This document shows, piece by piece, positions 22,717 through 58,111 of a stretch of DNA of 58,111 nt. Source of the DNA: a virus; the IMG/VR virus record IMGVR_UViG_3300025141_000107, positions 1-58,111 of that record. The stretch is one strand, 5' to 3'. Positions within the stretch are counted from its first letter, which is position 1. Every line of letters begins with the position of its first letter. The translations under genes and the position numbers were made by a program. The notes beneath the pieces were generated by a model that did no database searches, was not told where the DNA came from, and saw only the letters and a program-made list of their open reading frames with translations.

Positions 22717-22737
22717 AGCCATACCAAGGAGAACAAT

Positions 22738-23314: not shown

Positions 23315-23315
23315 T
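23287..23315 (+). promoter_or_regulatory. Early-type promoter
   Basis: GTGTAG 23287-23292, 17-bp spacer ending TGG, TATAAT 23310-23315; the upstream stop TAA is within the -10. Drives 23336. Confidence 0.8.
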
Positions 23316-23335
23316 ATGTGGGTAAGGAGGCAGAC

Positions 23336-23512: not shown

Positions 23513-23859
23513 TGAGAGCACTGTACGATCAATTGAAAGGGCATGACTGGTATTACGGTTACAGCGACGACCATCGAGTATGGAAGAAAGGCCAGCGACG
23601 TCATGACCACCTGCGACGCTTGCTAGGAAGCTTGAACTGTCCTTATCCGATGCAGCACCTGAGAATGGCCGTCGAAGAGATGGTGGTCGACATGTTCGTT
23701 GAGGAAACGCCAGGGCACTGGTATCGGAATCCTCACACATACAAGAATGTGGCACCGGTGAAGCGCTCCGAGCTCCTGCTCCGTGCTGATCAGGTTCAGA
23801 TCCTCGCTTGGATCGAAGCGCAAGGTGAACAGATCACAGCTGATACACCACACGTGTAA
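23512..23859 (+). CDS. Hypothetical protein
   Basis: A protein of 115 residues from ATG 23512 in the TGATG overlap; ATG 23491 is an in-frame alternative. It is basic, with His and Trp (GHDWYYGYSDDHRVW), then helical (LRMAVEEMVVDMFVEE, LLRADQVQILAWIEAQ). The family is not known. It ends HV with the stop in the next promoter's -35. Confidence 0.6.
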   Translation: MRALYDQLKGHDWYYGYSDDHRVWKKGQRRHDHLRRLLGSLNCPYPMQHLRMAVEEMVVDMFVEETPGHWYRNPHTYKNVAPVKRSELLLRADQVQILAWIEAQGEQITADTPHV

Positions 23860-23882
23860 CATTCATATACACGTGGTATAAT
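23854..23882 (+). promoter_or_regulatory. Early-type promoter for a non-coding region
   Basis: GTGTAA 23854-23859 (upstream Val-stop), 17-bp spacer ending TGG, TATAAT 23877-23882. Unlike the other copies it is not followed within 40 bases by a ribosome site and ATG. Confidence 0.85.
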
Positions 23883-23888
23883 ATAAAC

Positions 23889-24195
23889 ACAAGGGGCAAG
23901 GAACACTGCTCGCGCTGGTTACACCGGCCGTCTGGAGCCGGAAGGCTAGGTTCCTCCACCACCTGCGCGGTTGGCGCTACAAGGGAATAGTCAAGGTGTC
24001 CCTCCAATCACCGGTCCTCGTCCGGTCCACTTGTCAGCGGGGAACTTATTCATTTTTGGGAGGAGCTAGGGTCCCTTCCAGAGTTAACACAAGGCGCGAC
24101 GGTGCCGGAGGTAACAGCAAAAAGCCGCCCGAGTGGCGAACACCGATGTCGGCGGGAAACAATGATTCCGACAGTCACCAACCCTACATTTTCAA
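23889..24195 (+). ncRNA. Candidate structured non-coding RNA
   Basis: About 300 bases lie between a strong promoter and the next one without a supported gene; the only frame over 60 codons (from 23996) has no ribosome site and low-complexity composition. The 5' part folds as AGGAAC with GTTCCT enclosing CCGGC/GCCGG. Further small GC-rich hairpins follow (CCGGTCC-TCGT-like near 24020, CCGATGTCGG near 24146). It vaguely recalls a tRNA in size of the first element, but no T-arm forms and the central loop has eight bases. Confidence 0.5.
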
Positions 24196-24198
24196 AAC

Positions 24199-24227
24199 GT
24201 GCAACTTAGATGATTAAGTGGTATAAT
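24199..24227 (+). promoter_or_regulatory. Early-type promoter
   Basis: GTGCAA 24199-24204, 17-bp spacer ending TGG, TATAAT 24222-24227. Drives 24280 through a hairpin leader. Confidence 0.85.
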
Positions 24228-24235
24228 AGAAACAC

Positions 24236-24254
24236 GGAAGGAAAGGATCCTTCC
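24236..24254 (+). promoter_or_regulatory. 5'UTR hairpin shared with 29362
   Basis: GGAAGGA, 5-base loop, TCCTTCC, just after the transcription start and 25 bases before the ATG. A near-identical element precedes the paralogous gene at 29408. It may stabilise the mRNA. Confidence 0.65.
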
Positions 24255-24279
24255 TAAAACCAAAACAAGGAGGCCAACA

Positions 24280-24684
24280 ATGGCCAAGTTCGATGTCCGT
24301 ATTCTTTCTCTCATCACCACTTCAGAAGATCCGGAGGCACCTGCCTTCGAGGCAGTCGGCTTGATCGATGGTGCTTCCTTCAAGGCTCGTACGATTCTCT
24401 GGGGTCCCAAGGGCAACAAACAGCCTCTCTTCAAGGTAGTTGAAGGTGAATCGGTCGGCGGGTCGCTTGCTGATTCTGAATTCACCCGTGGTCAGCGCAT
24501 TGCAATTGCTCGGGCTTGCAAGCTGGTTCGGACCGGTGCCGCAAGCCTTGAGGAAGATGATGGTCTTCAGAATCTCACACTCAAGGAGCTCCGTGCCAAG
24601 GCCAAGGTCTTGGGTGTCTCGGGAACTCACCGAAAGGGTATCACCAAGGCTGAGGTGGTGGAGCTCGTACGCTCCGCGGCCTAA
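24280..24684 (+). CDS. Hypothetical protein with C-terminal SAP/Rho-N-like domain
   Basis: A protein of 134 residues starts at ATG 24280 after CAAGGAGG. The N-terminal domain (residues 1-85) is strand-rich and contains FTRGQRIAIARAC, shared with the protein at 29408 (FTRGARIAIAKKC). Residues 98-134, LTLKELRAKAKVLGVSG and then KAEVVELVRSA, match the SAP/Rho N-terminal helix-extended-helix that binds nucleic acid. Promoter, leader hairpin, good ribosome site and GC-rich third positions suggest high expression. A nucleic-acid-binding early protein is likely. Confidence 0.7.
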   Translation: MAKFDVRILSLITTSEDPEAPAFEAVGLIDGASFKARTILWGPKGNKQPLFKVVEGESVGGSLADSEFTRGQRIAIARACKLVRTGAASLEEDDGLQNLTLKELRAKAKVLGVSGTHRKGITKAEVVELVRSAA

Positions 24685-24694
24685 GGCCAGCATG

Positions 24695-24716
24695 GCACGG
24701 GGGAAATCCCCCGTGC
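24695..24716 (+). other. Hairpin after the SAP-like gene
   Basis: A perfect 9-bp stem, GCACGGGGG with CCCCCGTGC, has a 4-base loop. No T-run follows; the next promoter starts 3 bases later. It may be a 3'-end stabiliser or partial terminator. Confidence 0.6.
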
Positions 24717-24718
24717 AC

Positions 24719-24747
24719 GTGTATATCTCAATTCCCAGTGGTATAAT
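24719..24747 (+). promoter_or_regulatory. Early-type promoter
   Basis: GTGTAT 24719-24724, 17-bp spacer ending TGG, TATAAT 24742-24747. Drives 24769. Confidence 0.8.
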
Positions 24748-24768
24748 ATATTGGTCCAGGAGGATCAC

Positions 24769-25008
24769 ATGGAACTTACACCCCTCGAAGAAGCAGTCAT
24801 CAGCGCACACGAAGTCGCATGCGGCCTAGCTGGTCTTGCTCTTATCAAGGATCTGCTTGACAAAGGTGACGCGGCGAATATCATTACAAGAGATCGACAA
24901 AGGTCGCTGGAAGATAGGAAGCAGGCACTTGTAGAGAGCAGACACGTGAACAAGGTGCTGAATCTCATTGCAGCACAGCGGTCGCTTGCATTCGGAATCG
25001 ATGCTTAG
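24769..25008 (+). CDS. Hypothetical helical protein
   Basis: A protein of 79 residues starts at ATG 24769 after AGGAGG. It is wholly helical (PLEEAVISAHEVACGLAGLA, LEDRKQALVESRHVNKVLNL). The family is not recognised. The frame extends upstream to 24751 but overlaps the transcription start. Confidence 0.65.
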   Translation: MELTPLEEAVISAHEVACGLAGLALIKDLLDKGDAANIITRDRQRSLEDRKQALVESRHVNKVLNLIAAQRSLAFGIDA

Positions 25009-25016
25009 GAGTACTC

Positions 25017-25166
25017 ATGCGGTTATATAGAGCAACCATTCGAATTCCAGGTCAGCACGACTTTGTAGCAGAGGTACGAGCTGACGATCAGATTCAGGCA
25101 CTGGGCATGCTCAGGTCGATGTATGGTTACGGGTCCATCGTTGGGAACTGTGTATATAGCGTGTAG
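25017..25166 (+). CDS. Small hypothetical protein
   Basis: A protein of 49 residues starts at ATG 25017, with TTAGGAG just upstream (the upstream stop TAG is part of it). MRLYRATIRIPGQHDFVAEV then ADDQIQALGMLRSMYG gives a strand-strand-helix pattern like small phage alpha/beta proteins at 30214 and 20852. It ends SV with GTG TAG in the next -35. Confidence 0.6.
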   Translation: MRLYRATIRIPGQHDFVAEVRADDQIQALGMLRSMYGYGSIVGNCVYSV

Positions 25167-25189
25167 CATTTAGCTGCTAATGGTATAAT
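25161..25189 (+). promoter_or_regulatory. Early-type promoter
   Basis: GTGTAG 25161-25166 (upstream Val-stop), 17-bp spacer ending TGG, TATAAT 25184-25189. Drives 25217. Confidence 0.85.
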
Positions 25190-25216
25190 AGTAACACCTA
25201 CTAAGGAGGAATCATA

Positions 25217-25528
25217 ATGATTTCAGCAACAACAATGACATTCGGTAGCGACCTCGGTACTGACAATCTGGCAAAGCACGTTAACGTCGTATTTGACAAC
25301 GGGCCAAAGATGGTGAGCCTGAGCCTGGACAATAGTGCTGGACGGATGGCACACATCGCGCGTGCAGATATACGGCTGCTCTACACTGACCCACTCGATG
25401 GTGGGGTCGTGGACGTGACATCAGATGTCTTTGGCGGCAGGGGCGATGATATCGTTCGAGGAACTCTTAGGAACATGGACCGGGCAATGAAGTGGCTTCA
25501 GATGGCCAGCTGGGGATTCGTACGATGA
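25217..25528 (+). CDS. Hypothetical protein
   Basis: A protein of 103 residues starts at ATG 25217 after AAGGAGG. It is strand-rich (KHVNVVFDNGPKMVSLSLD, ADIRLLYTDPLDGGVVDV) with an amphipathic C-terminal helix (LRNMDRAMKWLQMASW). The family is unknown. It overlaps the next gene by four bases. Confidence 0.65.
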   Translation: MISATTMTFGSDLGTDNLAKHVNVVFDNGPKMVSLSLDNSAGRMAHIARADIRLLYTDPLDGGVVDVTSDVFGGRGDDIVRGTLRNMDRAMKWLQMASWGFVR

Positions 25529-25833
25529 AGACATTTACTTTCGTTATCGGCAGCGCAGATGACTTCGAGGGAATGGAAGACCTGCAGGATTACGTGGAAC
25601 AGGAGGGCAGCAGTGGTAACCTCAACTACTCAGTCCACGAGTTCGAGTCACATGATGACTGCGACGAAGAAACAGTAACCATGATCGGACGAGGTATCGC
25701 CTTCAGTAATGACTGGTGTATGGACCACACGTTTAGCTTCTTGGTGCGAGGAACAGTAAGTGATTCAGATGGCAAGAGCGGGTCACAAATGCAGATGCAT
25801 GACCTTTGGGAGATTCCTGATGGGGCCGTCTAG
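25525..25833 (+). CDS. Hypothetical protein, paralogue of 17748
   Basis: A protein of 102 residues starts at ATG 25525 in an ATGA overlap. It contains FEGMEDLQDYVEQEGS and GRGIAFSNDWCMDHTFS, matching the protein at 17748 in order and spacing. It is acidic; function is unknown. Confidence 0.65.
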   Translation: MKTFTFVIGSADDFEGMEDLQDYVEQEGSSGNLNYSVHEFESHDDCDEETVTMIGRGIAFSNDWCMDHTFSFLVRGTVSDSDGKSGSQMQMHDLWEIPDGAV

Positions 25834-25843
25834 CGTGGTTCTT

Positions 25844-25918
25844 ATGGGCCTCGTGTGGTTTGTCATCTGGGTGGTGGGAATCCTGGTATGGACCCACATA
25901 AAGAAGAGAAAGCTGTAA
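25844..25918 (+). CDS. Single-span membrane micro-protein
   Basis: A 24-residue peptide, MGLVWFVIWVVGILVWTHIK then KRKL: one Trp-rich membrane helix with a basic end inside. GTG 25835 is an in-frame alternative start adding three residues. The stop overlaps the next ATG (TAATG). It was chosen because the neighbours are packed stop-to-start around it. Confidence 0.5.
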   Translation: MGLVWFVIWVVGILVWTHIKKRKL

Positions 25919-26088
25919 TGAGTTTGAAAGTGAATGACAGTGTCCGTCATGTTGAATATCCAGATCAGTGCGGAATAGTTGTCGCAGTGACTAAGAGGTG
26001 GCCGTCAGGACCTCCAGTGATCCTAGTTAAGTGGGGGAAGTCCAATGACTGCTCTCGGCACATTCCTAGTGCATTGAGGCTCGTGTAG
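25918..26088 (+). CDS. KVGDLV-like small protein
   Basis: A protein of 56 residues starts at ATG 25918 in the TAATG overlap (MSLKVNDSVRHVEYPD). CGIVVAVTKRW and VILVKWGKSND match the family's core strands. It ends RLV, with GTG TAG in the next promoter. Confidence 0.65.
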   Translation: MSLKVNDSVRHVEYPDQCGIVVAVTKRWPSGPPVILVKWGKSNDCSRHIPSALRLV

Positions 26089-26111
26089 CTATTAGCAGTC
26101 AATGGTATAAT
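26083..26111 (+). promoter_or_regulatory. Early-type promoter
   Basis: GTGTAG 26083-26088 (upstream Val-stop), 17-bp spacer ending TGG, TATAAT 26106-26111. Drives 26137. Confidence 0.85.
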
Positions 26112-26136
26112 AGAAGTACCAATCAAGGAAGATTCA

Positions 26137-26307
26137 ATGATTAAGTACCAAGTACACTTTGAGAAGCCAACCTGCAAAGGTATCAAGCGTGGCATCCGCA
26201 CAATCAAGGCACGTAACGAAGCAGAGGCAATCATCAAGTGCAAGTCAGTGGTTGCCAATAGCTTCGGACACTGGGTTAACCGTCTTGCAAATGAGGTGGC
26301 AGTATGA
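26137..26307 (+). CDS. Hypothetical protein, paralogue of 20852
   Basis: A protein of 56 residues starts at ATG 26137. MIKYQVHFE, IRTIKARNEAEAIIKCKS and SFGHWVNRLANEVAV closely match the protein at 20852. The identical C-terminal block suggests a conserved function. The stop overlaps the next start by four bases. Confidence 0.7.
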   Translation: MIKYQVHFEKPTCKGIKRGIRTIKARNEAEAIIKCKSVVANSFGHWVNRLANEVAV

Positions 26308-26546
26308 AGATAGGAGACAAGGTAGTTCACGTGGACAGGCTCGACCTCATCGGTCGGGTGGTCGCAAAGCAGAGCAAGGCACTCGGCGAAGGCATCACGG
26401 TACTGTGGGAGAAGAGCCTTAGGAATCCTGACGCAATCCCGCTGGTGAACGGTCGACGCACGTCCCATCACCACTGGAGCACTCTCACAAAGGTGGTGAC
26501 CAGGTCGCAAGACACATGTAAGTTTGGCCAACCTGTGGTACAATAG
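26304..26546 (+). CDS. KVGDLV-like small protein
   Basis: A protein of 80 residues starts at ATG 26304 (MKIGDKVVHVDRLDL). IGRVVAKQSKALGEGITVLW gives both core strands. The C-terminal 12 residues are encoded within the next promoter (GTG GTA CAA TAG covers the extended -10 and stop), so they may be incidental. Confidence 0.65.
   Translation: MKIGDKVVHVDRLDLIGRVVAKQSKALGEGITVLWEKSLRNPDAIPLVNGRRTSHHHWSTLTKVVTRSQDTCKFGQPVVQ
26516..26544 (+). promoter_or_regulatory. Early-type promoter
   Basis: ATGTAA 26516-26521, 17-bp spacer ending TGG, TACAAT 26539-26544; fully inside the upstream coding end. Drives 26565. Confidence 0.75.
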
Positions 26547-26564
26547 TACCACCAAGGAGATACA

Positions 26565-26744
26565 ATGAAGTATACCATCAAGAAGTTCAACGGCGACGAT
26601 CAATACAGCTGGGCTGTATTCCGCAAAGCTGACGTGAAAGGGATGCGGAGCCCGATCTTTTACGGTCAGGCGACGCCGATCATCAACGGTCTCGATCAAT
26701 ATGAGGCGCGGTACCACAGAGATCGCTTGGAGAAGATAGCATGA
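26565..26744 (+). CDS. Small hypothetical protein
   Basis: A protein of 59 residues starts at ATG 26565 after AAGGAGA. MKYTIKKFNGDDQYSWAVFR is strand-rich, then an amphipathic helix (YEARYHRDRLEKIA). The family is not recognised. Four-base overlap with the next gene. Confidence 0.65.
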   Translation: MKYTIKKFNGDDQYSWAVFRKADVKGMRSPIFYGQATPIINGLDQYEARYHRDRLEKIA

Positions 26745-26959
26745 AAGCTGGAGACCTGATTCACATGCCTGGCCAGACCCTGGCAAAGGGAGAGATCCCG
26801 AGCTTGGGCATTGTCATTGATGACGTCCCTCAGTTCAGGCACAAGCACAGCACTCGAGGACGCATCGGCATAATGTGGGTGGAAAACTGGGGCAAAGTAG
26901 ATTATGAGCCAAAAGATTGGCTGGAGGTGGTAAGTGAAGCTATTCCTGTGGAAGCTTAG
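26741..26959 (+). CDS. KVGDLV-family small protein
   Basis: A protein of 72 residues starts at ATG 26741 (MKAGDLIHMPGQTLA). LGIVIDDVPQ and RIGIMWVENWG match the core strands, and LEVVSEA resembles the array ending. The next gene starts at a GTG within that ending, the same architecture as in the 1-5200 array. Confidence 0.7.
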   Translation: MKAGDLIHMPGQTLAKGEIPSLGIVIDDVPQFRHKHSTRGRIGIMWVENWGKVDYEPKDWLEVVSEAIPVEA

Positions 26960-27239
26960 TCAAGACGTCAACAACGATTACGACACGTACAGCGATGCAG
27001 TCGTGGTGTCAAGTAACCCGGTTGCTGCCAAGCGGATCCATCCGAGCGTTGATAGCCAGACAGGTGAGATGATGTTCCGGTATGTCGAGGACAAAGGGTG
27101 GCATTGGGTCCATGACGGAGCTCACTATGGCAATAGCGGCTGGGCTGAGCCAAAGGACATCCAGGTTACGTGTGTCGGTGAGGCAGCTGCCTGGCTGGGC
27201 GAAGGCGGCGTGGTATGTTCGTCCTTTCATGCTGGGTAG
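26934..27239 (+). CDS. Conserved phage hypothetical protein
   Basis: A protein of 101 residues starts at GTG 26934. MKLFLWKLSQDVNNDYDTYS followed by AVVVSSNPVAAKRIHP is a pattern I recognise from conserved short phage proteins of unknown function (L-x-L-W, V-N-N-x-Y-D-T-Y, A-V-V, I-H-P). It continues with VTCVGEAAAWL. No biochemical role is known. Confidence 0.65.
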   Translation: MKLFLWKLSQDVNNDYDTYSDAVVVSSNPVAAKRIHPSVDSQTGEMMFRYVEDKGWHWVHDGAHYGNSGWAEPKDIQVTCVGEAAAWLGEGGVVCSSFHAG

Positions 27240-27243
27240 AGAA

Positions 27244-27420
27244 ATGCACACGATAAGAGTGCTGATCACACCGCAAGAACATCCTGATGGAGAACAGTGG
27301 GTGACACACACATTCAGTGAACATGAGCTAGACGACATGCTCGCGAATATCAGGTACTGGGAGTCGATGAACATTCCCTTCGAACACACGTACGAACGTG
27401 TAACACCGAGGCCAATGTAG
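27244..27420 (+). CDS. Small hypothetical protein
   Basis: A protein of 58 residues from ATG 27244; the frame is open upstream to 27082 but overlaps the previous gene. MHTIRVLITPQEHPDGEQW, then an acidic helix. Its stop abuts the -10 of the next promoter. Confidence 0.6.
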   Translation: MHTIRVLITPQEHPDGEQWVTHTFSEHELDDMLANIRYWESMNIPFEHTYERVTPRPM

Positions 27421-27426
27421 TATAAT
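27398..27426 (+). promoter_or_regulatory. Early-type promoter
   Basis: GTGTAA 27398-27403, 17-bp spacer, TATAAT 27421-27426 (TAG rather than TGG before it). Drives 27452. Confidence 0.8.
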
Positions 27427-27451
27427 AGTATCACCAACCAAGGAGGCCCAC

Positions 27452-27715
27452 GTGGCTATCAAAACTTACCGCTGCCGCTTTTTCCCAAATCACGCACCCA
27501 CCCCTGGGCGAGGAGAGCTTGCTGAGTATCTCGTCCCCGTTGAGTGGTGGGCATACGCCGACGACCGGCTGGACGCACGCGGTCCGGCTGAACTGACCAA
27601 GGCACAGGTTGAGGTCAAGGCCTACAGTCCAGAGGAAGCCAGAAAGCTGGTGGTCCGGGAGTGGGGTGACTACGGCCGAGTCGGTACCGCCGTCGCGCAG
27701 GAGGTGGCAGCATGA
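27452..27715 (+). CDS. Hypothetical protein
   Basis: A protein of 87 residues starts at GTG 27452 after AAGGAGG. It has strands KTYRCRFFPNHAP and VEVKAYSPEEARKLVVREWG, the latter a strand-helix unit similar to small alpha/beta phage proteins. Its stop overlaps the zinc-ribbon gene. GC content is higher than in the flanks. Confidence 0.65.
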   Translation: MAIKTYRCRFFPNHAPTPGRGELAEYLVPVEWWAYADDRLDARGPAELTKAQVEVKAYSPEEARKLVVREWGDYGRVGTAVAQEVAA

Positions 27716-27816
27716 AGTACTACTGTAGATTCTGCGGAGTCGAGTCACATAAGCCAGACTGGGTGCAGGGCATCTGTCCAAGATGCGGCACAAGAATCCC
27801 ACCGAAGGAGTGGTAG
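27712..27816 (+). CDS. Zinc-ribbon micro-protein
   Basis: A 34-residue protein starts at ATG 27712 in an ATGA overlap. MKYYCRFCGVESHKPDWVQG then ICPRCGTRIPPKEW has two C-x-x-C-G knuckles 15 residues apart, a complete rubredoxin-like zinc ribbon. It could bind nucleic acid or act as a protein adaptor. Confidence 0.75.
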   Translation: MKYYCRFCGVESHKPDWVQGICPRCGTRIPPKEW

Positions 27817-27817
27817 A

Positions 27818-28048
27818 ATGAATCCATGGATTGACGTTTTCGGGTGGTGCCTCGTCATTGCTTGCATCATCTTCCTCAGGTATGAGATACCTAGGGCAGC
27901 TCGTGAGATCAGAAAGATACTCAGCGAATCTCAGGCAGTGCAACAGCACATTAGTCGAGGGCAGATGGCGTGTCCCACATGTGGTGTGGCCAGGGAGCCC
28001 GGCGACCCGTTGCATGGTGGATTCCGATGCGCCTGCTGGCAACTGTAA
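27818..28048 (+). CDS. Membrane-anchored zinc-ribbon-like protein
   Basis: A protein of 76 residues starts at ATG 27818, one base after the previous stop. Residues 5-21 form a membrane helix (IDVFGWCLVIACIIFL), then a basic helix, then ACPTCGVAREPGD and FRCACWQL with C-x-x-C and C-x-C, a likely zinc site on the inner side. The pairing with the preceding ribbon gene suggests they work together (inference). Confidence 0.65.
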   Translation: MNPWIDVFGWCLVIACIIFLRYEIPRAAREIRKILSESQAVQQHISRGQMACPTCGVAREPGDPLHGGFRCACWQL

Positions 28049-28052
28049 GCCC

Positions 28053-28081
28053 GTGCAACTATCATATACAGATGGTATAAT
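28053..28081 (+). promoter_or_regulatory. Early-type promoter
   Basis: GTGCAA 28053-28058, 17-bp spacer ending TGG, TATAAT 28076-28081. Drives 28107. Confidence 0.85.
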
Positions 28082-28106
28082 AGATAGGTAATCAAGGAGA
28101 TTATTC

Positions 28107-28556
28107 ATGACTCTCACTCCCTGCGAACTTGGCCTCCTCTCCAACACCGACGTCCTGGGTTACATCCGGGCGCAGAACGCCGCGCGCAACGCGCAGGCAA
28201 TTGCAGAAGGCTGGCAGTTCTGGACGCTCATGGCAGAGGAGCTTGCTGAGGAGCACACCAATGTCTATGAGCTGGAGCTCCGATTCGCTCGCGGCACGTA
28301 CAGTGACGTGTACAAGGAGTGGTGCGGGTGCCGTCCCTCCATCAACCGGGAACTCACCCTGGCGCAGCTGGAGGTGGAGATTGGCCGCATGTCTGACATG
28401 GCAGCGGCGGCGTACAAGGAAGAGCTGGAGTGGCAGGCAGAGCAGGACCGCAAGGACCGCGAGGACATCGCCCTGGGCGTGACACCTCCCACGCCAGGCA
28501 CGGAGCTGGAGCAGTGGGAAATCTACGAGGCCAAGGCCGAAGAGGCTGGGTACTAA
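28107..28556 (+). CDS. Hypothetical acidic helical protein
   Basis: A protein of 149 residues starts at ATG 28107 after AAGGAGA. It is helical throughout (IRAQNAARNAQAIAEGW, LAQLEVEIGRMSDMAAA) with an acidic tail. The GC content is high and all six frames are partly open, but only this one has a promoter and ribosome site. The family is unknown. Confidence 0.65.
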   Translation: MTLTPCELGLLSNTDVLGYIRAQNAARNAQAIAEGWQFWTLMAEELAEEHTNVYELELRFARGTYSDVYKEWCGCRPSINRELTLAQLEVEIGRMSDMAAAAYKEELEWQAEQDRKDREDIALGVTPPTPGTELEQWEIYEAKAEEAGY

Positions 28557-28566
28557 GTTGGAAGTC

Positions 28567-28595
28567 GTGCAGGTCTCGCAGCCTAATGGTATAAT
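28567..28595 (+). promoter_or_regulatory. Early-type promoter
   Basis: GTGCAG 28567-28572, 17-bp spacer ending TGG, TATAAT 28590-28595. Drives 28624. Confidence 0.8.
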
Positions 28596-28623
28596 ATAGA
28601 TGTCAGCTAAGGAGTGTGACACA

Positions 28624-28737
28624 ATGTTTGATTTCGATCCAGCGGAAGCTTGGATATTTGGATTCCTGGGAACTATGGGATCACTCGCCCTGGCGATGGG
28701 TTTCGCGGCACTATCTAGCGGAGGATGTCTGTCATGA
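28624..28737 (+). CDS. Membrane micro-protein
   Basis: A 37-residue peptide starts at ATG 28624 after AAGGAGTG. After an acidic start (MFDFDPAEAW) a Gly/Ala-rich membrane helix spans about residues 11-31, ending in SSGGCLS. It overlaps the next membrane peptide by four bases; the two may form a pair. Confidence 0.6.
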   Translation: MFDFDPAEAWIFGFLGTMGSLALAMGFAALSSGGCLS

Positions 28738-28862
28738 CGTTTTCATTCGCATTCTTTCTTGCTTCAGTATCACTCTGGGGCATCGCAATTGGTTACGGAG
28801 TCCCGTCTTTCATTGACTGGACCCAACGCAAAGTCGCTGAGATGGAGGCAGACAATGCTTAA
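28734..28862 (+). CDS. Membrane micro-protein
   Basis: A 42-residue peptide starts at ATG 28734 in an ATGA overlap. MTFSFAFFLASVSLWGIAIG is a membrane helix, followed by a short amphipathic tail (WTQRKVAEMEADNA). Its last codons GAC AAT GCT TAA contain the ATG of the next gene. Confidence 0.6.
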   Translation: MTFSFAFFLASVSLWGIAIGYGVPSFIDWTQRKVAEMEADNA

Positions 28863-29088
28863 AGCAGGAGATTTGGTCACTTACGTTCGACCCCACCCAG
28901 ACGAGGTCGGCCTCGTTCACCGAGTGACAGCAGTCATGGAGGACGACGACGGTATATGGGTGCACCTGGATGAGGAGCCACCCGACTCAACTGGTGGGCC
29001 GGTTGAGATTGAGCCAGGCATCTACGGAGGCTGCGGCGGATGGGAACAGTTGCACCAGTTCAAGCTCGTGGAGGAAGACAATGCTTAG
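28855..29088 (+). CDS. KVGDLV-like small protein
   Basis: A protein of 77 residues starts at ATG 28855 (MLKAGDLVTYVRPHP). EVGLVHRVTAVMEDDDGIWV gives the core strands with an acidic loop. It ends KLVEEDNA, whose codons hold the next ATG. The GACAATGCTTA junction repeats the one at its own start, a second dual-coding junction type. Confidence 0.65.
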   Translation: MLKAGDLVTYVRPHPDEVGLVHRVTAVMEDDDGIWVHLDEEPPDSTGGPVEIEPGIYGGCGGWEQLHQFKLVEEDNA

Positions 29089-29323
29089 TGTGGGAGACAC
29101 AGTCGAATACAAAGGCTACAGAGGTCGCGTCAGTGAGCTCATCGGTCACGGTGTGGTCAAGGTCCGCTGGGAGGACGGAGCTGAAGGTGAAGCCGCGGAG
29201 CAGCAGATGACGAAGGTCTACCAGACGAATCGTTTCAACTTCATCCTCTTCAAGAACTACGATGGCTCGGTGACGTCGAAGACGATTCCTCGCGTCACAT
29301 ACAACAAGTTGTTCGCCCAGTAA
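29081..29323 (+). CDS. KVGDLV-like small protein with extra C-terminal part
   Basis: A protein of 80 residues starts at ATG 29081 (MLSVGDTVEYKGYRG). RVSELIGHGVVKVRWEDGAE is a textbook SH3-like two-strand pattern with W-x-D-G. A C-terminal extension follows (RFNFILFKNYDG). The next promoter begins two bases after its stop. Confidence 0.65.
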   Translation: MLSVGDTVEYKGYRGRVSELIGHGVVKVRWEDGAEGEAAEQQMTKVYQTNRFNFILFKNYDGSVTSKTIPRVTYNKLFAQ

Positions 29324-29324
29324 C

Positions 29325-29353
29325 GTGTAGCTATCAGCTACTAATGGTATAAT
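29325..29353 (+). promoter_or_regulatory. Early-type promoter
   Basis: GTGTAG 29325-29330, 17-bp spacer ending TGG, TATAAT 29348-29353. Drives 29408 through a hairpin leader. Confidence 0.85.
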
Positions 29354-29361
29354 ATATACAC

Positions 29362-29381
29362 GGAAGGAAAGGATTCCTTCC
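29362..29381 (+). promoter_or_regulatory. 5'UTR hairpin shared with 24236
   Basis: GGAAGGAA, loop AGGA, TTCCTTCC, about 9 bases after the -10. Same position, sequence and distance to ATG as the leader of the gene at 24280. Confidence 0.65.
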
Positions 29382-29407
29382 AAACCCCCGATTCAAGGAG
29401 AATCACC

Positions 29408-29803
29408 ATGGCTACAGCCAACGCAAAGTACGAATTCGATATCACTGACTCCGAGGTCCTCGCACCTCATCCGAAGTCCGGCCTCGCAACCCTGGTTGTG
29501 CAGGGTGTTTGCACCAACGCTGATGGCGTCAGCTTTGACTTCATCGCTGTCAACAACCTTGACCAGCGCTACCCGGAACGGTTCAAGGTGAACTGGAACG
29601 GTTCCAAGGCTCGTATGCCCGAGGTGGTCGGTCACGGCCTGGCGGATGATGTCCGCGCCGGTCGCTCGGTCTCGGCTGACCTTTACTTCACACGGGGCGC
29701 GCGCATTGCGATCGCTAAGAAGTGCATCACGCTCTTCCCGCTGTGGAAGCAGCAGGCCGGCGCTATCGGTGAGGAAGCTGCTGAGGAAACTGACGCAAGC
29801 TAG
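29408..29803 (+). CDS. Hypothetical early protein, paralogue of 24280
   Basis: A protein of 131 residues starts at ATG 29408 after CAAGGAGAA. It shares with the protein at 24280 the strand-rich first domain and the motif FTRGARIAIAKKC, but lacks the SAP-like tail and ends in a Glu/Ala helix (GAIGEEAAEETDAS). Same promoter, same leader hairpin and GC-rich codons suggest strong early expression. A nucleic-acid-related role is inferred from its relative only. Confidence 0.65.
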   Translation: MATANAKYEFDITDSEVLAPHPKSGLATLVVQGVCTNADGVSFDFIAVNNLDQRYPERFKVNWNGSKARMPEVVGHGLADDVRAGRSVSADLYFTRGARIAIAKKCITLFPLWKQQAGAIGEEAAEETDAS

Positions 29804-29808
29804 AACGT

Positions 29809-29849
29809 AGGCTGGGCCGCTTCCGGTAACCAATCCGGACCCCCAGCCT
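29809..29849 (+). other. Stem-loop after the 29408 gene
   Basis: Outer stem AGGCTGGG with CCCAGCCT, inner stem TCCGG with CCGGA. Six bases after the stop; no T-run. A transcript-end structure. Confidence 0.6.
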
Positions 29850-29854
29850 CACTT

Positions 29855-29883
29855 GGCCGTCCCGGTGTACAACCGGGGCGGTC
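29855..29883 (+). terminator. Possible terminator hairpin overlapping a promoter
   Basis: An 11-bp stem from GGCCGTCCCGG to CCGGGGCGGTC (two G-T pairs) around a 7-base loop, followed by GTCTTT. The loop contains GTGTAC, the -35 of the tRNA promoter. Confidence 0.5.
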
Positions 29884-29894
29884 GTCTTTATAAT
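29865..29894 (+). promoter_or_regulatory. Early-type promoter, 18-bp spacer
   Basis: GTGTAC 29865-29870, 18-bp spacer, TATAAT 29889-29894. It precedes tRNA-Arg; the -35 lies in a hairpin loop. Confidence 0.55.
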
Positions 29895-29903
29895 GTTCAA
29901 CAT

Positions 29904-29979
29904 GCGCCCTTAGCTCAGCGGATAGAGCATTGGCCTTCTAAGCCAAGGGTCGGAGGTTCGAATCCTCCAGGGCGTGCCA
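29904..29979 (+). tRNA. tRNA-Arg (anticodon UCU)
   Basis: Acceptor GCGCCCT with AGGGCGT (first pair G-T), D-arm GCTC/GAGC, anticodon stem TTGGC/GCCAA with loop CTTCTAA, T-arm GGAGG-TTCGAAT-CCTCC, CCA encoded. It reads AGA codons, common in the A/T-rich leader genes. Confidence 0.95.
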
Positions 29980-29989
29980 TCTTCTCAAC

Positions 29990-30018
29990 GTGCAGCTATC
30001 AGTCAAGAGTGGTATAAT
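29990..30018 (+). promoter_or_regulatory. Early-type promoter
   Basis: GTGCAG 29990-29995, 17-bp spacer ending TGG, TATAAT 30013-30018. Drives 30039. Confidence 0.8.
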
Positions 30019-30038
30019 AGTATCACCAAGGAGGTATC

Positions 30039-51594: not shown

Positions 51595-51873
51595 TTGAAT
51601 AGAAAAACCCTTATAGCAAAAATTAAAATGATAGAGATGGGAATAGTGCCAGCTCTAAACGGTTTTGAGCTACACACACAGCTAGAGTCACTAAGCGAGC
51701 CCGATAGAAGAATCGTGAAGAGAAAGTTTAGAAAGGTGTGGAGAAAAATTAGAAAAAGTGATCCGTCTTTTTCATACCTGATGGGTGATAAAAAAGGTGT
51801 AACTCCGACTAGAAGCCAAAAAAGAAATAGAACTGCGGTTGTAGTTGCAAAGATTGTCAAGGATATAGGCTAA
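51595..51873 (+). CDS. Small basic protein
   Basis: A protein of 92 residues from TTG 51595 with AAAGGA upstream; the frame is open to 51502 but overlaps the divergent gene's start. It is basic (KRKFRKVWRKIRKSDPSFS, SQKRNRTAVVVAKIVKD). The family is unknown; DNA or RNA binding is possible. Its 3' end overlaps the convergent protease gene by four bases. Confidence 0.55.
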   Translation: MNRKTLIAKIKMIEMGIVPALNGFELHTQLESLSEPDRRIVKRKFRKVWRKIRKSDPSFSYLMGDKKGVTPTRSQKRNRTAVVVAKIVKDIG

Positions 51874-52703
51874 GGGGTGATATCTATGTCAGACTCTGCC
51901 TCGTACTCTCTAATGAACTCTGTTATATCGTAGATGCCTACCCCTATGGTAACCTCGGGAAAGCCGACAAGTGATCTCTGGGTTATCCCTATGACCTCTT
52001 TTTCATAATTTAGAACAAGGCTCCCAGAGCTTCCTGATATGGCAGGTATTGTAAAAAAGCATGCGGTGCTGTTACATCCGGAAAATGTACCAGAGAAATG
52101 AAGGCTAACACCGTCTTCTGATACACCTAGCGGTGATGATACAGTTGTAGTGAGCTCGCCAAGTTCTGGCATTGACTTAGCTAGCTTTAGCTTTTCATCG
52201 ACAATATAGTCTTCTGAGGATATTAGACATAGATCTGTATCTGGATTTTGCTTCAATATTGAAAACTCGTACTCATTTCCATCTTTGTATATTTTTCTCT
52301 TTATGCTAATTGAATCTGTCATCTCTGGCGGAATATTTCTAGTCATGTCGTCTGTATCACAAAAGTGATCAGCAGTTAGAAGATAGGTGACACCGCCGAC
52401 CCTAGATAGAGCTCCAGCAGACGCCCTTGAGGTGTAGATCTCATATATTTCATTTTCGCACTCTATATGTGAAAGAACTCCCGAATCTAAGAATTCATCC
52501 TCGCAAATTATCTCTAGGGTGCCTGATGTCTCTAGAGTGACGAAGTTGTCAACTGGGAGATTATATTTAAATAAAAACTTAGAAGATCCTACAGCTACTA
52601 GAGCTGAGAGGAATGTTAGTATGATACAGTTTAGTAGAAAGTTCTTTCTTATTATAATTTTTCTATCTAGAGGTAGAGATATAATTTCTTTAAGATTCTT
52701 CAT
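51870..52703 (-). CDS. Membrane-anchored trypsin-like serine protease
   Basis: A protein of 277 residues on the minus strand starts at ATG 52703. Residues 22-40 form a membrane helix (FLLNCIILTFLSALVAVGS). The catalytic triad of the chymotrypsin fold is visible: H113 in LLTADHFC, D157 in DTDLCLIS, and S226 in ISGSSGSLV. It would act in the periplasm. Phages rarely carry such enzymes; it may degrade envelope proteins or antimicrobial factors. Confidence 0.75.
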   Translation of the reverse strand: MKNLKEIISLPLDRKIIIRKNFLLNCIILTFLSALVAVGSSKFLFKYNLPVDNFVTLETSGTLEIICEDEFLDSGVLSHIECENEIYEIYTSRASAGALSRVGGVTYLLTADHFCDTDDMTRNIPPEMTDSISIKRKIYKDGNEYEFSILKQNPDTDLCLISSEDYIVDEKLKLAKSMPELGELTTTVSSPLGVSEDGVSLHFSGTFSGCNSTACFFTIPAISGSSGSLVLNYEKEVIGITQRSLVGFPEVTIGVGIYDITEFIREYEAESDIDITP

Positions 52704-52833: not shown

Positions 52834-54027
52834 ATGTCAATATTCAAACACCACAAGACCTCAGCTGATAGATCTGCAACTGACAGATCTAGGCATAAGG
52901 ATAAGATTAGAAAGGCAATTAGAGAGGGTGTCCACCACATAGTCTCAGATGAATCTATAATTGGCCAGAACGGAAAAAAGAAGATAAAAATACCCGTCAG
53001 AGGCATCAAGGAGTATAGGTTTGTATACGGTGACAATGACAAGAATAAGAAGGTTGGATCAGCAAATGACAAGGAGGTCAGGAGGGGCCAGAAGGTAGGT
53101 CCAGCAAGAAAAAAGGGTAGAAAACCAGGCTCTGGTGAAGATAAACCAGGAAATAAGCCTGGAGAGGAAATGTACGAAGTAGAGATAACCCTTGAAGAGC
53201 TTTCCAGCTACCTATTTGATGATCTCAAGCTTCCAGATCTCGAAAAGAAGAAGATGCTAAATATAGTTTCAGATAAGTTTAAGAGAAAGGGACATCGAGC
53301 ACAAGGTATCCGCCCCAGGTTATCAAAGAAAGAAACTTTAAAAAATAAAATTAGAAGAAAGAAATCCTCAGAGAGATTTAAAAAATCAACCGGTGAAGAA
53401 AATGAGGACGAATCATTTTCTTTTCACGAGTCAGATTTAAAATACAAGCACATAAAGAAGCAAAAAGAGAAAACAAGCAATGCTGTCATATTCTTTATGA
53501 TGGATACATCTGGTTCAATGACTAAGCATAAAAAATTCCTAGCACGATCATTCTTTTTTCTACTTTACCACTTTATTAGAAAAAAATATAAAAATACCGA
53601 GATCGTATTTATATCTCACTCCTCAGAAGCAAAAGAGGTTGGCGAGGATGATTTCTTTCAGAGAGTGAGTTCAGGCGGAACTATCATTTCGTCAGCTTTG
53701 GAAAAATGCATAGATATCTGCTCTCAGAGATACCACGCAGACACGTGGAATATATACGCTTTTCATTGTTCGGATGGCGATAACTGGCCTTCTGATAATA
53801 AAAAATCAGCAAATCTTTCTTTAAAGCTGGCAGATATGTGTCAGCTCTACGCCTACATTCAAACTACACACGGTGTCGGTGATTACTGGAGCAACAATAA
53901 TACAATTGTTGCCGACTATGGTTCAATAAATCACCAAAAGTTTAAAATTGCACACCTGGAGAAAAAGGTAGATGTGTGGCACGAATTTAAAAGAATACTA
54001 GGGGGTTCCAGTGGATTGGAAAATTAA
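52834..54027 (+). CDS. YeaH/DUF444 family protein
   Basis: A protein of 397 residues starts at ATG 52834. The N-terminus with DRSRHKDKIRKAIREGVHHI and the following basic, Gly-rich linker, then a von Willebrand A domain with MIDAS D224-T-S-G-S228 (FFMMDTSGSMTKHKK), match the YeaH/DUF444 family along the full length. In E. coli, yeaH is co-transcribed with the kinase gene yeaG and linked to ycgB in the stress and nitrogen-starvation response; its biochemical role is unclear. It overlaps the SpoVR gene by 17 bases. Confidence 0.85.
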   Translation: MSIFKHHKTSADRSATDRSRHKDKIRKAIREGVHHIVSDESIIGQNGKKKIKIPVRGIKEYRFVYGDNDKNKKVGSANDKEVRRGQKVGPARKKGRKPGSGEDKPGNKPGEEMYEVEITLEELSSYLFDDLKLPDLEKKKMLNIVSDKFKRKGHRAQGIRPRLSKKETLKNKIRRKKSSERFKKSTGEENEDESFSFHESDLKYKHIKKQKEKTSNAVIFFMMDTSGSMTKHKKFLARSFFFLLYHFIRKKYKNTEIVFISHSSEAKEVGEDDFFQRVSSGGTIISSALEKCIDICSQRYHADTWNIYAFHCSDGDNWPSDNKKSANLSLKLADMCQLYAYIQTTHGVGDYWSNNNTIVADYGSINHQKFKIAHLEKKVDVWHEFKRILGGSSGLEN

Positions 54028-55339
54028 AGATTTGCAGGAATGGGATGATAATATTTGCAAGCTTGCAAAAGAGTTATCTCTCGACTGGTATCCTATAAAC
54101 TACGAGATATGTGATTATTATGAGATGATAGGTCACATGTCATATCATGGAATGCCCAGCCACTATCAGCACTGGTCATATGGAAAGTCATTTGAGAGAA
54201 CACACCAAATGTATAATCTAGGTGCAGAGGGGCTACCGTACGAGCTGATAATAAATTCTAATCCATCAATAGCATACCTTATGAGACAAAATCCTCTATA
54301 TTTGCAGATATTGATCATGGCACACTGCGTTGGCCATTCTGATTTTTTTAAAAATAACAGGATGTTTTCGGACACCAGACCGGAATCTGTTACATCTAGA
54401 TTTAGAAATGCTAGAAAGAGAATACAAAAATATAGCGAAGACCCTAGCATTGGATTAAAAAAAGTTGAAAGATTTCTTGATGCAATTCACGCAATTAAAT
54501 TTCAAATAAATAGAAACAATAGAAAAAGATTGACACGAGATGAGGTAAAGAGCAGAGTTATTTCAAAATACAATCAAAATAAGAAAAATAAGAAAAATAA
54601 TAAAAATAATAAAAATATTTTAAAACCAGACTTAAAGAGAAGGCTTCTGCAGCCAGATGATGATTTTTTATCATTTTTGATAGAGTACGGAAATCACTTT
54701 GAAGATTGGGAAATTGATATACTAAGCATTATTAGAGATGAATCTGAGTATTTTATACCTCAAATTAAAACAAAAATTTTAAATGAAGGGTGGGCATCTT
54801 TTTGGCATTATAAGCTTTTGCATAATCTAGATTTGCCACAAAAATTTCATCTTCCATTTCTAAAATCACACAATCAGGTAATTAGACCACACATAGGGTC
54901 AGTTAATCCGTATCACCTTGGCTTTCATATTTTTAATAAAATTGAAAAAGAGAGAGGGATAGAGGAGTGTTTCTTTATCAGAGAAGTCCACGAGGATGTC
55001 TCGGCAGTTAGAATGTACCTTGAGTATGAAGATTTTAAAAATTTAAACTTATTTTCATACTCAAGAAAGAAGGATGGAAGAACAATTGATGAAATATCTG
55101 ACGGAATTGGTTGGGAAAAAGTTAGAGATGATTTAATTAAAAATATAGGTGACAATTCGATCCCAAGGGTTATAGTATCCAATATATCAACTAATGGTGA
55201 TCTAATACTAGAGCATATACACGATGGTAGAGATCTAGATCTAGACTATGCAGATAATGTTGTAAACTCTATTAGAGTATTGTGGAATAAAGATGTAAAA
55301 TTTTTCACAATTATTGAAGATGAACCCTGGGAAATTTGA
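54011..55339 (+). CDS. SpoVR/YcgB family protein
   Basis: A protein of 442 residues starts at GTG 54011. WYPINYEICDYYEMIGHMSY then GMPSHYQHWSYGKSFERT is the diagnostic SpoVR N-terminal block, and GWASFWHYKLLHNL together with HLGFHIFNKIE are the conserved later parts. Typical length is 450-510. In Bacillus, SpoVR affects spore cortex formation; in other bacteria it is tied to PrkA and YeaH. Metal-binding or enzymatic function is not established. The overlap with the upstream gene implies coupled translation. Confidence 0.9.
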   Translation: MDWKIKDLQEWDDNICKLAKELSLDWYPINYEICDYYEMIGHMSYHGMPSHYQHWSYGKSFERTHQMYNLGAEGLPYELIINSNPSIAYLMRQNPLYLQILIMAHCVGHSDFFKNNRMFSDTRPESVTSRFRNARKRIQKYSEDPSIGLKKVERFLDAIHAIKFQINRNNRKRLTRDEVKSRVISKYNQNKKNKKNNKNNKNILKPDLKRRLLQPDDDFLSFLIEYGNHFEDWEIDILSIIRDESEYFIPQIKTKILNEGWASFWHYKLLHNLDLPQKFHLPFLKSHNQVIRPHIGSVNPYHLGFHIFNKIEKERGIEECFFIREVHEDVSAVRMYLEYEDFKNLNLFSYSRKKDGRTIDEISDGIGWEKVRDDLIKNIGDNSIPRVIVSNISTNGDLILEHIHDGRDLDLDYADNVVNSIRVLWNKDVKFFTIIEDEPWEI

Positions 55340-55360
55340 TATAATTAACATGGAGATACA

Positions 55361-57289
55361 ATGTCTAAATCTGATTTTTTAAAAATAATTCGAGATCAAA
55401 GATCTAAAAAGAAAGAAGTTCGCTTTAGTGGGACATTTATTGAATATTTGGACCATATTAGAGAAAATCCAGAAATTATAAAAACTTCTCACAAAAGATT
55501 GTATGGCTGCATAATAGAACAGGGTATGGAAGTTATGCCTGATAGTGATCCAAGAAAATCAAATATATTTGGCGGAGACAACGTAAGGGTATACAATTAT
55601 TTTAAAGATCAGTTTTTCGGAATGGAAAATGTAATATCAAAACTAATGAGATTTCTTGCTTCTGCATCTAAGCGAGGTGAGGAATCTAGGCAGGTATTGC
55701 TCCTAATGGGACCGGTAGGTGCAGGAAAATCAGATCTGACAGAGCATATTAAGAGTTCTCTTGAGGGTTCAACATTTTTTCACCTTGTTGGAGATCCCCA
55801 GAGGGGCGAACCTTTACAGCTTATACCTAGAAATCTTAGGGAAAAATTTGAAGAGGCACTTTGCGTAAAAATTGAAGGTGACATCAGCCCAGTAGCTCGC
55901 TATATTTTAATGGAAGAGCTAGAGGGGAAATATGAAAATTTTAATGTCAAAGAGACTAGTTTTTCCCAAAGAGCACGACGCGGCATAGCTTCAGTCCCAC
56001 CGATGGATGCAAATTCACAGGATGTAGGTGTTCTTATAGGGACCGAGGATATTTCAAAACTAGATAAATATCCCGAAGATGACCCGCGTGTTTTGTCTCT
56101 AAATGGTGCATTCAATGTTGGCAACAGAGGTATAGTTGAACTTATAGAGATTTTTAAGAATGAAATAGAGTTTCTTCATACAGTCATAACTGCTACACAG
56201 GAAAAGAGAATTCCGTCACCTGGAAAAAATGATATGATTTATTTCGATGGCGTAATTCTTGCTCACTGTAATGAGTCTGAATGGAATAGATTCCAGAGTG
56301 AACATACGAATGAAGCAATTCTTGATAGAATTGTCAAGATAGATGTTCCATATGTTCTCGAACTAGATCAGGAAATAAGGATATATGAAAAAATCATTGG
56401 TAAGTCTGATTTTGATGCCCATATAGCACCCCATACTTTAAAAGTTGCATCAATGTTCTCAGTAATGTCAAGACTCCAGCAATCTCAAAAATGTGATCTT
56501 TTGACAAAAATGAAAATCTACAACGGCGAAGATGTCATTGAAAAAGGCAGGGTTAAGAATGTAGATATAAAAGATCTGAGAGATGAGTCAAATAGAGAAG
56601 GAATGAAAGGAATTTCTACAAGATTTATCATGAAATCAATAGATGCAGCCCTTTCAGATTCAGAAAAAAATATGATAACACCGATATCGATTATGGATTC
56701 ACTTATAAAGCAGGTAAAAGACCAGGTTATAAATGAAGATGACAAAGAGAGATATCTTGAAATAATTCAAAAAATAATTAGAGAAGAGTATCTCAAAATA
56801 CTAGAAAATGAAATTGCTAAAGCATTCATCTCTGCATACGAAGAACAAGCCCAGTCTCTTTTTGATTCATACCTTGATAATGCAGAATCTTACACAAATA
56901 GAACAATAATGAAAGATAGAATAACAAAAGAAGAGAGAGAGCCAGATGAAAAATTTATGGGTGCTATTGAAGAACAGATAGGAATAGTTGGTAGCGCATG
57001 TGAAGGATTTAGAGGCGATGTTACTGCTTACATGTTTGCCAAAATGAGAAGAGGGGAGAAAATAGACTACAGATCATACGGACCGCTAAAGGAAGCAATT
57101 GAGTCATATCTCATAACATCTGTCAAAGATATCGCTAGAATTGTCACTAGAAGCAAATCTAGAGATGAAGACCAGAAAAAGAAATACAGCGAAATGATGA
57201 AAACACTAATGGATGAATATGAATATAGTGAGGAAAGTGCAGAGGAGATTCTAGTATTTGCAGCAAATAATCTCTGGCGGGATTCGTAG
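55361..57289 (+). CDS. PrkA/YeaG family AAA+ protein (serine kinase-like)
   Basis: A protein of 642 residues starts at ATG 55361 after TGGAGATA. The PrkA AAA+ domain is clear: Walker A G117-P-V-G-A-G-K-S124, the block FHLVGDPQRGEPLQLIP, then FDGVILAHCNESEW and the sensor ILDRIVKIDVPYVL. Full family length is about 640. PrkA/YeaG is described as a protein kinase and, more recently, as an ATP-dependent protease-like enzyme in stress response. It completes the operon in the order yeaH-spoVR-prkA; the common bacterial order starts with prkA. Confidence 0.92.
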   Translation: MSKSDFLKIIRDQRSKKKEVRFSGTFIEYLDHIRENPEIIKTSHKRLYGCIIEQGMEVMPDSDPRKSNIFGGDNVRVYNYFKDQFFGMENVISKLMRFLASASKRGEESRQVLLLMGPVGAGKSDLTEHIKSSLEGSTFFHLVGDPQRGEPLQLIPRNLREKFEEALCVKIEGDISPVARYILMEELEGKYENFNVKETSFSQRARRGIASVPPMDANSQDVGVLIGTEDISKLDKYPEDDPRVLSLNGAFNVGNRGIVELIEIFKNEIEFLHTVITATQEKRIPSPGKNDMIYFDGVILAHCNESEWNRFQSEHTNEAILDRIVKIDVPYVLELDQEIRIYEKIIGKSDFDAHIAPHTLKVASMFSVMSRLQQSQKCDLLTKMKIYNGEDVIEKGRVKNVDIKDLRDESNREGMKGISTRFIMKSIDAALSDSEKNMITPISIMDSLIKQVKDQVINEDDKERYLEIIQKIIREEYLKILENEIAKAFISAYEEQAQSLFDSYLDNAESYTNRTIMKDRITKEEREPDEKFMGAIEEQIGIVGSACEGFRGDVTAYMFAKMRRGEKIDYRSYGPLKEAIESYLITSVKDIARIVTRSKSRDEDQKKKYSEMMKTLMDEYEYSEESAEEILVFAANNLWRDS

Positions 57290-57292
57290 TAT

Positions 57293-58111
57293 ATGGCTTA
57301 TAACATACATGATAGGTCTAAAATAGCAAGTTCAGTAGGAAAAATTAAAAATAAAATAGATGATCTAACATATCAGAATTGCATAAACAATCTAACTAAT
57401 TCAATATCTGAAGACCTTGTTCAAAATCTAGTATACATGACAAAAATAAGAGGTGGAAACTTAGATAATCTTATTCTAAAACTTATTGTAAATGAAACAA
57501 TAATATCAGAATCAACAGTTGCTGGAACAGGAAATCTTTCACTTAGATTTTTATCTCACTATCTAGATACTTTTAAAGGTCTAAAGACTAAAAAAGATAG
57601 ACTGGAGAGTATAGAGTGTGTCAGAAGTGATATAGTGAAAACTGCAATATTTTTGAATGAATTTCTTAGAAAGATGAACATAAATGATTTAAAAAAAATG
57701 ATCGATAGCGCAGGATTTAGTAAAGATATTTCAAAAATAATAAAAGAAATAATCACTACGATGGAAATTGGGGAATCAATTAATATTGAAAAATCCAACA
57801 CTTCAGAAACATATTTCGAAAAAGCAAGCGGGAATTCAATAAAGATAGAAGTTCCACAACTATTATTAACTAAAAATAACTCGTGGAATAGACAGGCAGT
57901 TAATGTTATTTTGATAGACGGAACAATAGAGTCTGTATCACAGATACATCATCTCCTGGAAAGAGTATCATCTTCAAAAGAACCCTTTTTAATAATTTGT
58001 AGAAAAGCACTTGAAGAAGTCAGAAAAACTATTGACACTAATTTCATAAGAGGAACATTAGATTTATTTTTAGTTGAAACAGGCTTTGATATCTGCCACC
58101 ACCATATCTTT
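57293..58111 (+). CDS. Divergent GroEL-like chaperonin (partial)
   Basis: The gene starts at ATG 57293, 3 bases after the PrkA stop, and runs off the window; 273 codons are visible. Residues 202-262 match the GroEL apical domain: VNVILIDGTIESVSQIHHLL (GroEL: I-L-L-x-D-K-K-I-S-N-I), then EPFLIICRKALEEVRKTI, NFIRGTLDLFLVETGFD (GroEL: M-R-G-x-x-K-V-A-A-V-K-A-P-G-F-G-D). The equatorial ATP motif D-G-T-T-T is replaced by ESTVAGTGNLSLRF near 80-93, so ATP use is uncertain. Phage chaperonins are known in some jumbo phages. Confidence 0.75.
   Translation, partial: MAYNIHDRSKIASSVGKIKNKIDDLTYQNCINNLTNSISEDLVQNLVYMTKIRGGNLDNLILKLIVNETIISESTVAGTGNLSLRFLSHYLDTFKGLKTKKDRLESIECVRSDIVKTAIFLNEFLRKMNINDLKKMIDSAGFSKDISKIIKEIITTMEIGESINIEKSNTSETYFEKASGNSIKIEVPQLLLTKNNSWNRQAVNVILIDGTIESVSQIHHLLERVSSSKEPFLIICRKALEEVRKTIDTNFIRGTLDLFLVETGFDICHHHIF

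Follow-up and report, generated by a model that had tools for sequence, protein, structure and literature searches.

Why should a viral genome encode PrkA, YeaH and SpoVR, three partners of an ATP-driven module that serves bacteria in starvation and stress, together with a chaperonin-like protein? The question is raised by the 58-kb viral fragment held in IMG/VR as record IMGVR_UViG_3300025141_000107 (the window: the whole stretch analysed, 58,111 nucleotides, with the record ending at 1 and at 58111), in which yeaH, spoVR and prkA stand in a row and run into a chaperonin-related gene. What the three proteins do jointly is a problem of long standing. Our findings that the trio is carried by a large clade of uncultured jumbo phages with T4-type heads, and that it has, judged from its sequences, the pattern of a core gene inherited with the genome, lead us to give an even chance to a scenario where this core module works as an ATP-driven AAA+/von Willebrand A (vWA) protein-remodelling machine in lytic growth.

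The module lies on the plus strand of the window and begins with yeaH (52834..54027; PF04285, E 2.9e-110), which codes for a DUF444 protein whose vWA-like domain shows the metal ion-dependent adhesion site (MIDAS) motif DTSGS. Next comes spoVR (54011..55339; PF04293, E 6.3e-119), which has a GTG start, conserves the AHxxGH and NEGxAxxxH residues and shows a C-terminal PF24755 match slightly under cut-off; prkA (55361..57289) combines an AAA+ domain (PF08298, E 5.4e-135) with the PrkA C-terminal, kinase-like domain (PF06798, E 5.6e-77), and its product matches PrkA 9xip in the PDB (E 5.9e-91). With gaps of -17 and +21 nt (the former a 17-nt overlap of yeaH and spoVR), the three same-strand genes form one operon as the original prediction had it, and all are intact and full-length with Pfam matches of E 1e-76 or better. 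The fourth open reading frame (ORF), for a divergent group I chaperonin without ATP-site motifs (57293..58111, plus strand), starts 3 nt past prkA and leaves the contig at 273 aa, its 3' part lying beyond the contig end. The changed gene order noted earlier is real, too: bacteria have prkA-yeaH-spoVR (loci L113 and L116; yeaG-yeaH in E. coli), whereas the window has yeaH-spoVR-prkA.

To see how widely this arrangement is shared, IMG/VR was scanned with the window PrkA, which gave 153 relatives (the best 80 used, 69-80% identical), and separately with a SpoVR alignment, which gave 395 relatives (80 loci kept); both scans favour close relatives, and their counts describe this clade, not viral SpoVR generally. 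The complete trio, whose presence in other large phages had been put up for checking, was found in 76 of the 80 PrkA-selected viral loci, and in the remaining four the absent gene is cut off, wholly or in part, by the contig end. The order yeaH-spoVR-prkA is invariant in all 80 SpoVR-selected loci. Gaps between spoVR and prkA are mostly 7-71 nt, and yeaH touches or overlaps spoVR, at a median gap of -1 nt in 69 loci, which suggests near-coupled translation of the two. All five contigs of at least 205 kb that were selected by capsid and not chosen for PrkA (G002, G004, G005, G007, G484) encode PrkA; none was seen on G485 (200 kb) and shorter contigs with the major capsid protein (MCP), fragments too short to judge loss, the prkA-MCP distance being ~146 kb in G007.

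That the carriers are phages follows from these relatives. Ten of 20 long trio-bearing contigs have a gp23-type capsid gene, and the close relatives with T4-type capsid genes are contigs of 132-298 kb. One of them, the 293-kb contig G001, encodes homologues of T4 gp17, gp20, gp21, gp23 (two), gp13, gp18 (two), gp19 and gp41 at 167-211 kb, a set that includes terminase, portal, prohead protease and tail sheath; its terminase was found by direct search with T4 gp17, and the Terminase_6C profile gave no match over cut-off on the jumbo contigs. Among named phages, the capsid relatives in Flavobacterium phage immuto and Microcystis phage Mel-JY01 are distant ones, with ~47% identity over 50-58% of the protein. 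Capsid, terminase, portal and contractile sheath genes were all missing among the scanned genes of the window, which is placed by its PrkA (within the clade, 80% identical to L003) and by its gene order. In G001, the gp23-type capsid genes form a tandem pair at 176-180 kb (L090, L092), as do the sheath genes. The longest contig with the trio (L046 / G003, 361 kb) has neither a gp23 capsid nor a chaperonin match, in contrast to other large contigs. Two contigs with the jumbo-phage trio and chaperonin were filed under bacterial metagenome-assembled genomes, NHDW01000006.1 (L111, 306 kb; Methylococcaceae TMED69) and PBIO01000025.1 (L112, 101 kb; Halobacteriovorax SP2999), and look like misbinned phage contigs.

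The case for a core module rests on how the trio evolves. Among ten genomes having both genes, mean pairwise identity was 0.73 for PrkA, 0.65 for MCP, 0.60 for YeaH and 0.58 for SpoVR, and distances of the trio proteins correlated with those of MCP (r 0.74-0.80). For closely related pairs, the ratio of non-synonymous to synonymous substitution rates (dN/dS) was 0.02-0.06 for PrkA, a rough value, as is every dN/dS given here, because dS approaches saturation for many of the pairs. We placed 126 PrkAs in a maximum-likelihood tree, made by a quick method and with support only from the Shimodaira-Hasegawa-like approximate likelihood-ratio test (SH-aLRT), and a branch with 100% support sets the 83 jumbo-phage PrkAs apart from all others. 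Beside them stands a bacterial PrkA subfamily, 52-57% identical and mainly from Bacillota and Calditrichota where named; some of these bacteria have a second PrkA that is 34-39% identical to the phage protein, and Proteobacterial YeaG-type PrkAs are 31-35% identical to it. This points to one old acquisition by the jumbo clade, after which the trio was passed down vertically as part of the core genome; in the simplest account, the donor was a bacterium that carried one specific PrkA subfamily, and the order changed to yeaH-spoVR-prkA afterwards. Long residence, proposed earlier on the strength of order and overlaps, therefore finds support in the single clade, the strong purifying selection and the correlation with capsid distances, and the trio does not branch within one host genus as a recent transfer might.

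Trios in other phages are already known; what appears new is the jumbo-wide core status of the module and the chaperonin without ATP site. Thermus phages phiYS40, TMA, phiLo, Lalka and MN1 encode a complete trio (yeaH-spoVR-[gp58]-serine kinase), with SpoVR and PrkA of phiYS40 already annotated in GenBank and with gp58, between spoVR and prkA in that phage, giving no Pfam match. Gene order in phiYS40 and phiLo is that of the jumbo clade, yet PrkA of the Thermus phages branches separately, is very divergent and in phiYS40 has D in place of the lysine equivalent to K426 of E. coli YeaG. PrkA, YeaH and SpoVR matches are also phage-encoded in the huge uncultured phages LR745206, LR756502, LR756504 and LR756511. 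Unlike the jumbo clade, LR745206 keeps the bacterial order prkA-yeaH-spoVR, and three of the huge phages fall near YeaG in the tree with LR756511 elsewhere, which indicates separate acquisitions. Since Thermus phages, the three huge phages and LR756511 all lie outside the jumbo clade, PrkA family members have been taken up by phages several times, the exact number being uncertain with such long branches. In Ralstonia jumbo phage RsoM2USA, SpoVR (ORF28) and PrkA (ORF30) are reported to be encoded close together (PMC8504454); this phage was not found in the collection searched. Compared with the bacterial operons (E. coli yeaGH; Bacillus prkA, spoVR), the phage module shares all three families and likewise keeps Walker A, the K426-equivalent lysine and MIDAS intact, but differs in its permuted order, its PrkA subfamily, its being phage-encoded and the usually adjoining chaperonin.

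As for that chaperonin, the earlier description of a GroEL-like gene directly after the trio stands for the fold and fails for the ATPase, its ATP-site motifs being gone. Pfam gave no match for the window ORF, and the Pfam chaperonin model matches no member of the family alone. A profile of 39 members, however, finds GroEL chains in the PDB at E 1.8e-37 over their intermediate and apical parts. With the window gene cut by the contig end, the fold was tested on a full-length relative, L004, whose AlphaFold2 model (predicted local distance difference test score, pLDDT, 89) superposes on whole GroEL/Hsp60 chains with Z 26 and root-mean-square deviation 4.2 over 443 of 450 residues at 14% identity. 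The best superpositions are on GroES-bound or nucleotide-bound chaperonin states, although little should be made of the conformation that a prediction happens to show. Going by this model, the gene after prkA encodes a chaperonin by fold, a full group I one, which should not be called GroEL. TLGPKG, D52, GDGTTT, D398 and GGG are missing or changed throughout the aligned family (DGTT in none of 39), and a chaperonin with such a site probably has no ATPase. At about 400-470 aa, it is shorter and far faster evolving (mean pairwise identity 0.22 among the ten genomes) than the group I chaperonins of other phages (EL gp146, AR9, Vibrio, Flavobacterium and Bacteroides phages), and it lacks their ATP-site motifs. 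Its dN/dS of about 0.07-0.2 in close pairs suggests that it evolves fast yet under selection.

The same fold as in those phage GroELs is kept by a second, canonical chaperonin (mean identity 0.45) which seven of the large genomes encode. It lies elsewhere in these genomes, matches PF00118 and retains GDGTTT, the glycine run and the residue that corresponds to D398, its TLGPKG motif being slightly changed, and six of these seven genomes have both kinds. As far as we could find, no earlier report describes a chaperonin without ATP site beside a canonical phage GroEL, and named phage records gave one weak match to the divergent family. The divergent gene directly follows prkA in 49 of 69 loci and lies within 2 kb in two more; in ten others, a chaperonin ORF sits about 8-12 kb upstream, nine of these being 537-546 aa, mostly full GroEL length. 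In freshwater loci, 434-aa minus-strand ORFs after prkA were considered as well; by eye they are glycosyltransferase-like and were set aside as not chaperonin-linked.

How might such a module work? Walker A (GPVGxGKS) and the K426-equivalent lysine are present in 80 of 80 phage PrkAs, MIDAS D.SGS in all 74 full-length YeaH relatives, and H105, H109, N258, E259, H266 and H287 of SpoVR are invariant in our alignment (A5). PrkA would act as the motor, an AAA+ protein driven by ATP, SpoVR as a metal-dependent effector and YeaH, with MIDAS, as the vWA partner that presents substrate; the chaperonin without ATP site might passively fold or hold clients, perhaps in mixed assemblies with the canonical GroEL of the phage. 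Trio and chaperonin together may act, by remodelling or folding, on proteins that each lytic cycle requires, be it for virion assembly or for takeover of host proteins, and such a role would explain why the motor PrkA evolves more slowly than the capsid protein. There is phage precedent for an AAA+/vWA role in virion assembly, because that is what was proposed for the MoxR-vWA pair of group 2.2 jumbo phages in a paper without mention of PrkA or SpoVR (PMC7824862). That pair likewise joins an AAA+ ATPase to a vWA partner, but its ATPase is of MoxR rather than PrkA type, and SpoVR and chaperonin are extra in our module. For Bacillus PrkA, published reports on kinase, ATPase and protease activity conflict, control of proteolysis being among the possible roles named in the original prediction, and in an assay of the B. 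anthracis protein, no protease and negligible kinase activity were seen together with ATP-dependent oligomers (PMC13001217). Going one step further, the PrkA/YeaH/SpoVR remodeller and a non-hydrolysing chaperonin, either a passive ring or a regulatory subunit in canonical GroEL rings, may constitute a new chaperone machine, an idea we offer tentatively and consider rather improbable.

Several observations weigh against a remodelling machine of the lytic cycle. In G001, the trio (at about 64-69 kb) is ~100 kb away from the head genes, and roughly one locus in four has no divergent chaperonin near prkA. A search for a promoter motif shared by the regions in front of yeaH, or by trio and capsid genes, found nothing enriched except AT-richness and ribosome-binding-like words; the T4 late-promoter word TATAAATA has 16 copies in the 293 kb of G001 with no evident pattern. 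Module proteins are without the MKITRRQLRRIIKEE-type leader common to many other proteins of the window. The predicted structure of SpoVR (pLDDT 78, less reliable around residues 40-90) gave no Foldseek match at E 0.001 or better, and to call SpoVR a metal-dependent effector is to guess from its invariant His and Glu. Moreover, the known target of bacterial YeaG/YeaH is host metabolism, not virions (PMC10954441).

This last point leads to the main alternative, in which the phage trio serves as a brake or switch on host metabolism that keeps slow or starved cells making phage. In nitrogen-starved E. coli, YeaG and YeaH jointly quiesce metabolism, and a K426A variant of YeaG, altered at the very lysine kept in 80 of 80 phage PrkAs, loses its overexpression effect (PMC10954441). 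In addition, 47 of 75 loci show a PhoH-like gene downstream, another name linked to starvation, although phages commonly encode PhoH. The phage PrkAs belong to another subfamily, closer to Bacillota/Calditrichota-type proteins (52-57%) than to the YeaG type (31-35%), and core status combined with a rate slower than that of the capsid would be unusual for a niche-specific host modulator. Hence, while control of the host state is a real possibility that we hold to be the less probable one, core status, constraint and the chaperonin neighbourhood tilt us tentatively towards lytic remodelling.

Far less probable, to our minds quite unlikely, is manipulation of sporulation or dormancy, a link that the original prediction had raised and that is not borne out. 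It draws on gene names that come from B. subtilis PrkA and E. coli YeaG, the YeaG type being only 31-35% identical to the phage protein, and on effects of SpoVR and PrkA on Bacillus sporulation (PMC13001217 and literature cited there). The trio families also occur, however, in non-spore-formers of the E. coli type (yeaG-yeaH) and in Thermus phages, the jumbo relatives come from many metagenomes with no host shown to form spores and no further sporulation gene is among the conserved neighbours of the trio. A trio that is core and strongly constrained in phages argues instead for some basic molecular activity from which lytic growth profits, and the several separate acquisitions described above point the same way. 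This may bear on marine oxygen-minimum-zone viromes, where spoVR was the most abundant 'sporulation' auxiliary gene and was read as aiding sporulation (PMC8940887). Because every SpoVR locus we recovered is part of a trio, that reading deserves a second look, and the spoVR genes counted there as sporulation auxiliary metabolic genes may largely belong to the trio module.

Finally, that the DNA is chromosomal or from a prophage edge, miscalled as viral, with a bacterial trio merely adjoining phage genes, is hardly credible and for the clade already refuted: the window without a capsid gene and the record of Enterobacter phage LAU1, which ends in host-like yeaGH with a YeaG almost identical to that of E. 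coli in the tree, would fit, but long contigs with T4-type head genes enclose the locus, which has its own PrkA clade and a changed gene order, and the flanks, which were to be checked for a bacterial chromosome, are not chromosomal in relatives of the window.

Other genes accompany the module. Upstream in the window and in divergent orientation, a trypsin-like serine protease with a hydrophobic N-terminal stretch is encoded (51870..52703, minus strand; PF13365, E 1e-7); with relatives upstream of the trio in about 41 of 75 loci, it is a frequent neighbour whose membership in the module is uncertain. Two small conserved genes without a family name follow on the downstream side: one, in 51 of 75 loci, encodes about 155 aa rich in Cys (HCxLPQ...CNNC), and the other, in 46 of 75, about 81 aa (examples of the two: L015 14347-14808, L040 14387-14656).

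Elsewhere in the window, Rfam found three tRNAs only, and recoding was considered for the many short ORFs at 16-31 kb and rejected, as no reassigned stop codon gave convincing long frames. About 17 genes, at 5916-42787 (plus strand) and 51536 (minus strand), start with near-identical peptides such as MKITRRQLRRIIKEE, with similar ones in related loci; we take this start to resemble a shared targeting leader such as the capsid-targeting sequence of T4. A repeat encoding an MKVGDLV-type protein start has nine copies (96-2949 and 21276), and a largely intergenic 50-nt repeat (GGTTAAMCAATAAAAGATC...GAATAGTTATA) has six copies at 10528-15634. Repeated promoter-like elements (CGTGTAAC...TGGTATAATA) lie within 20172-30026, a stretch of higher G+C and few long genes.

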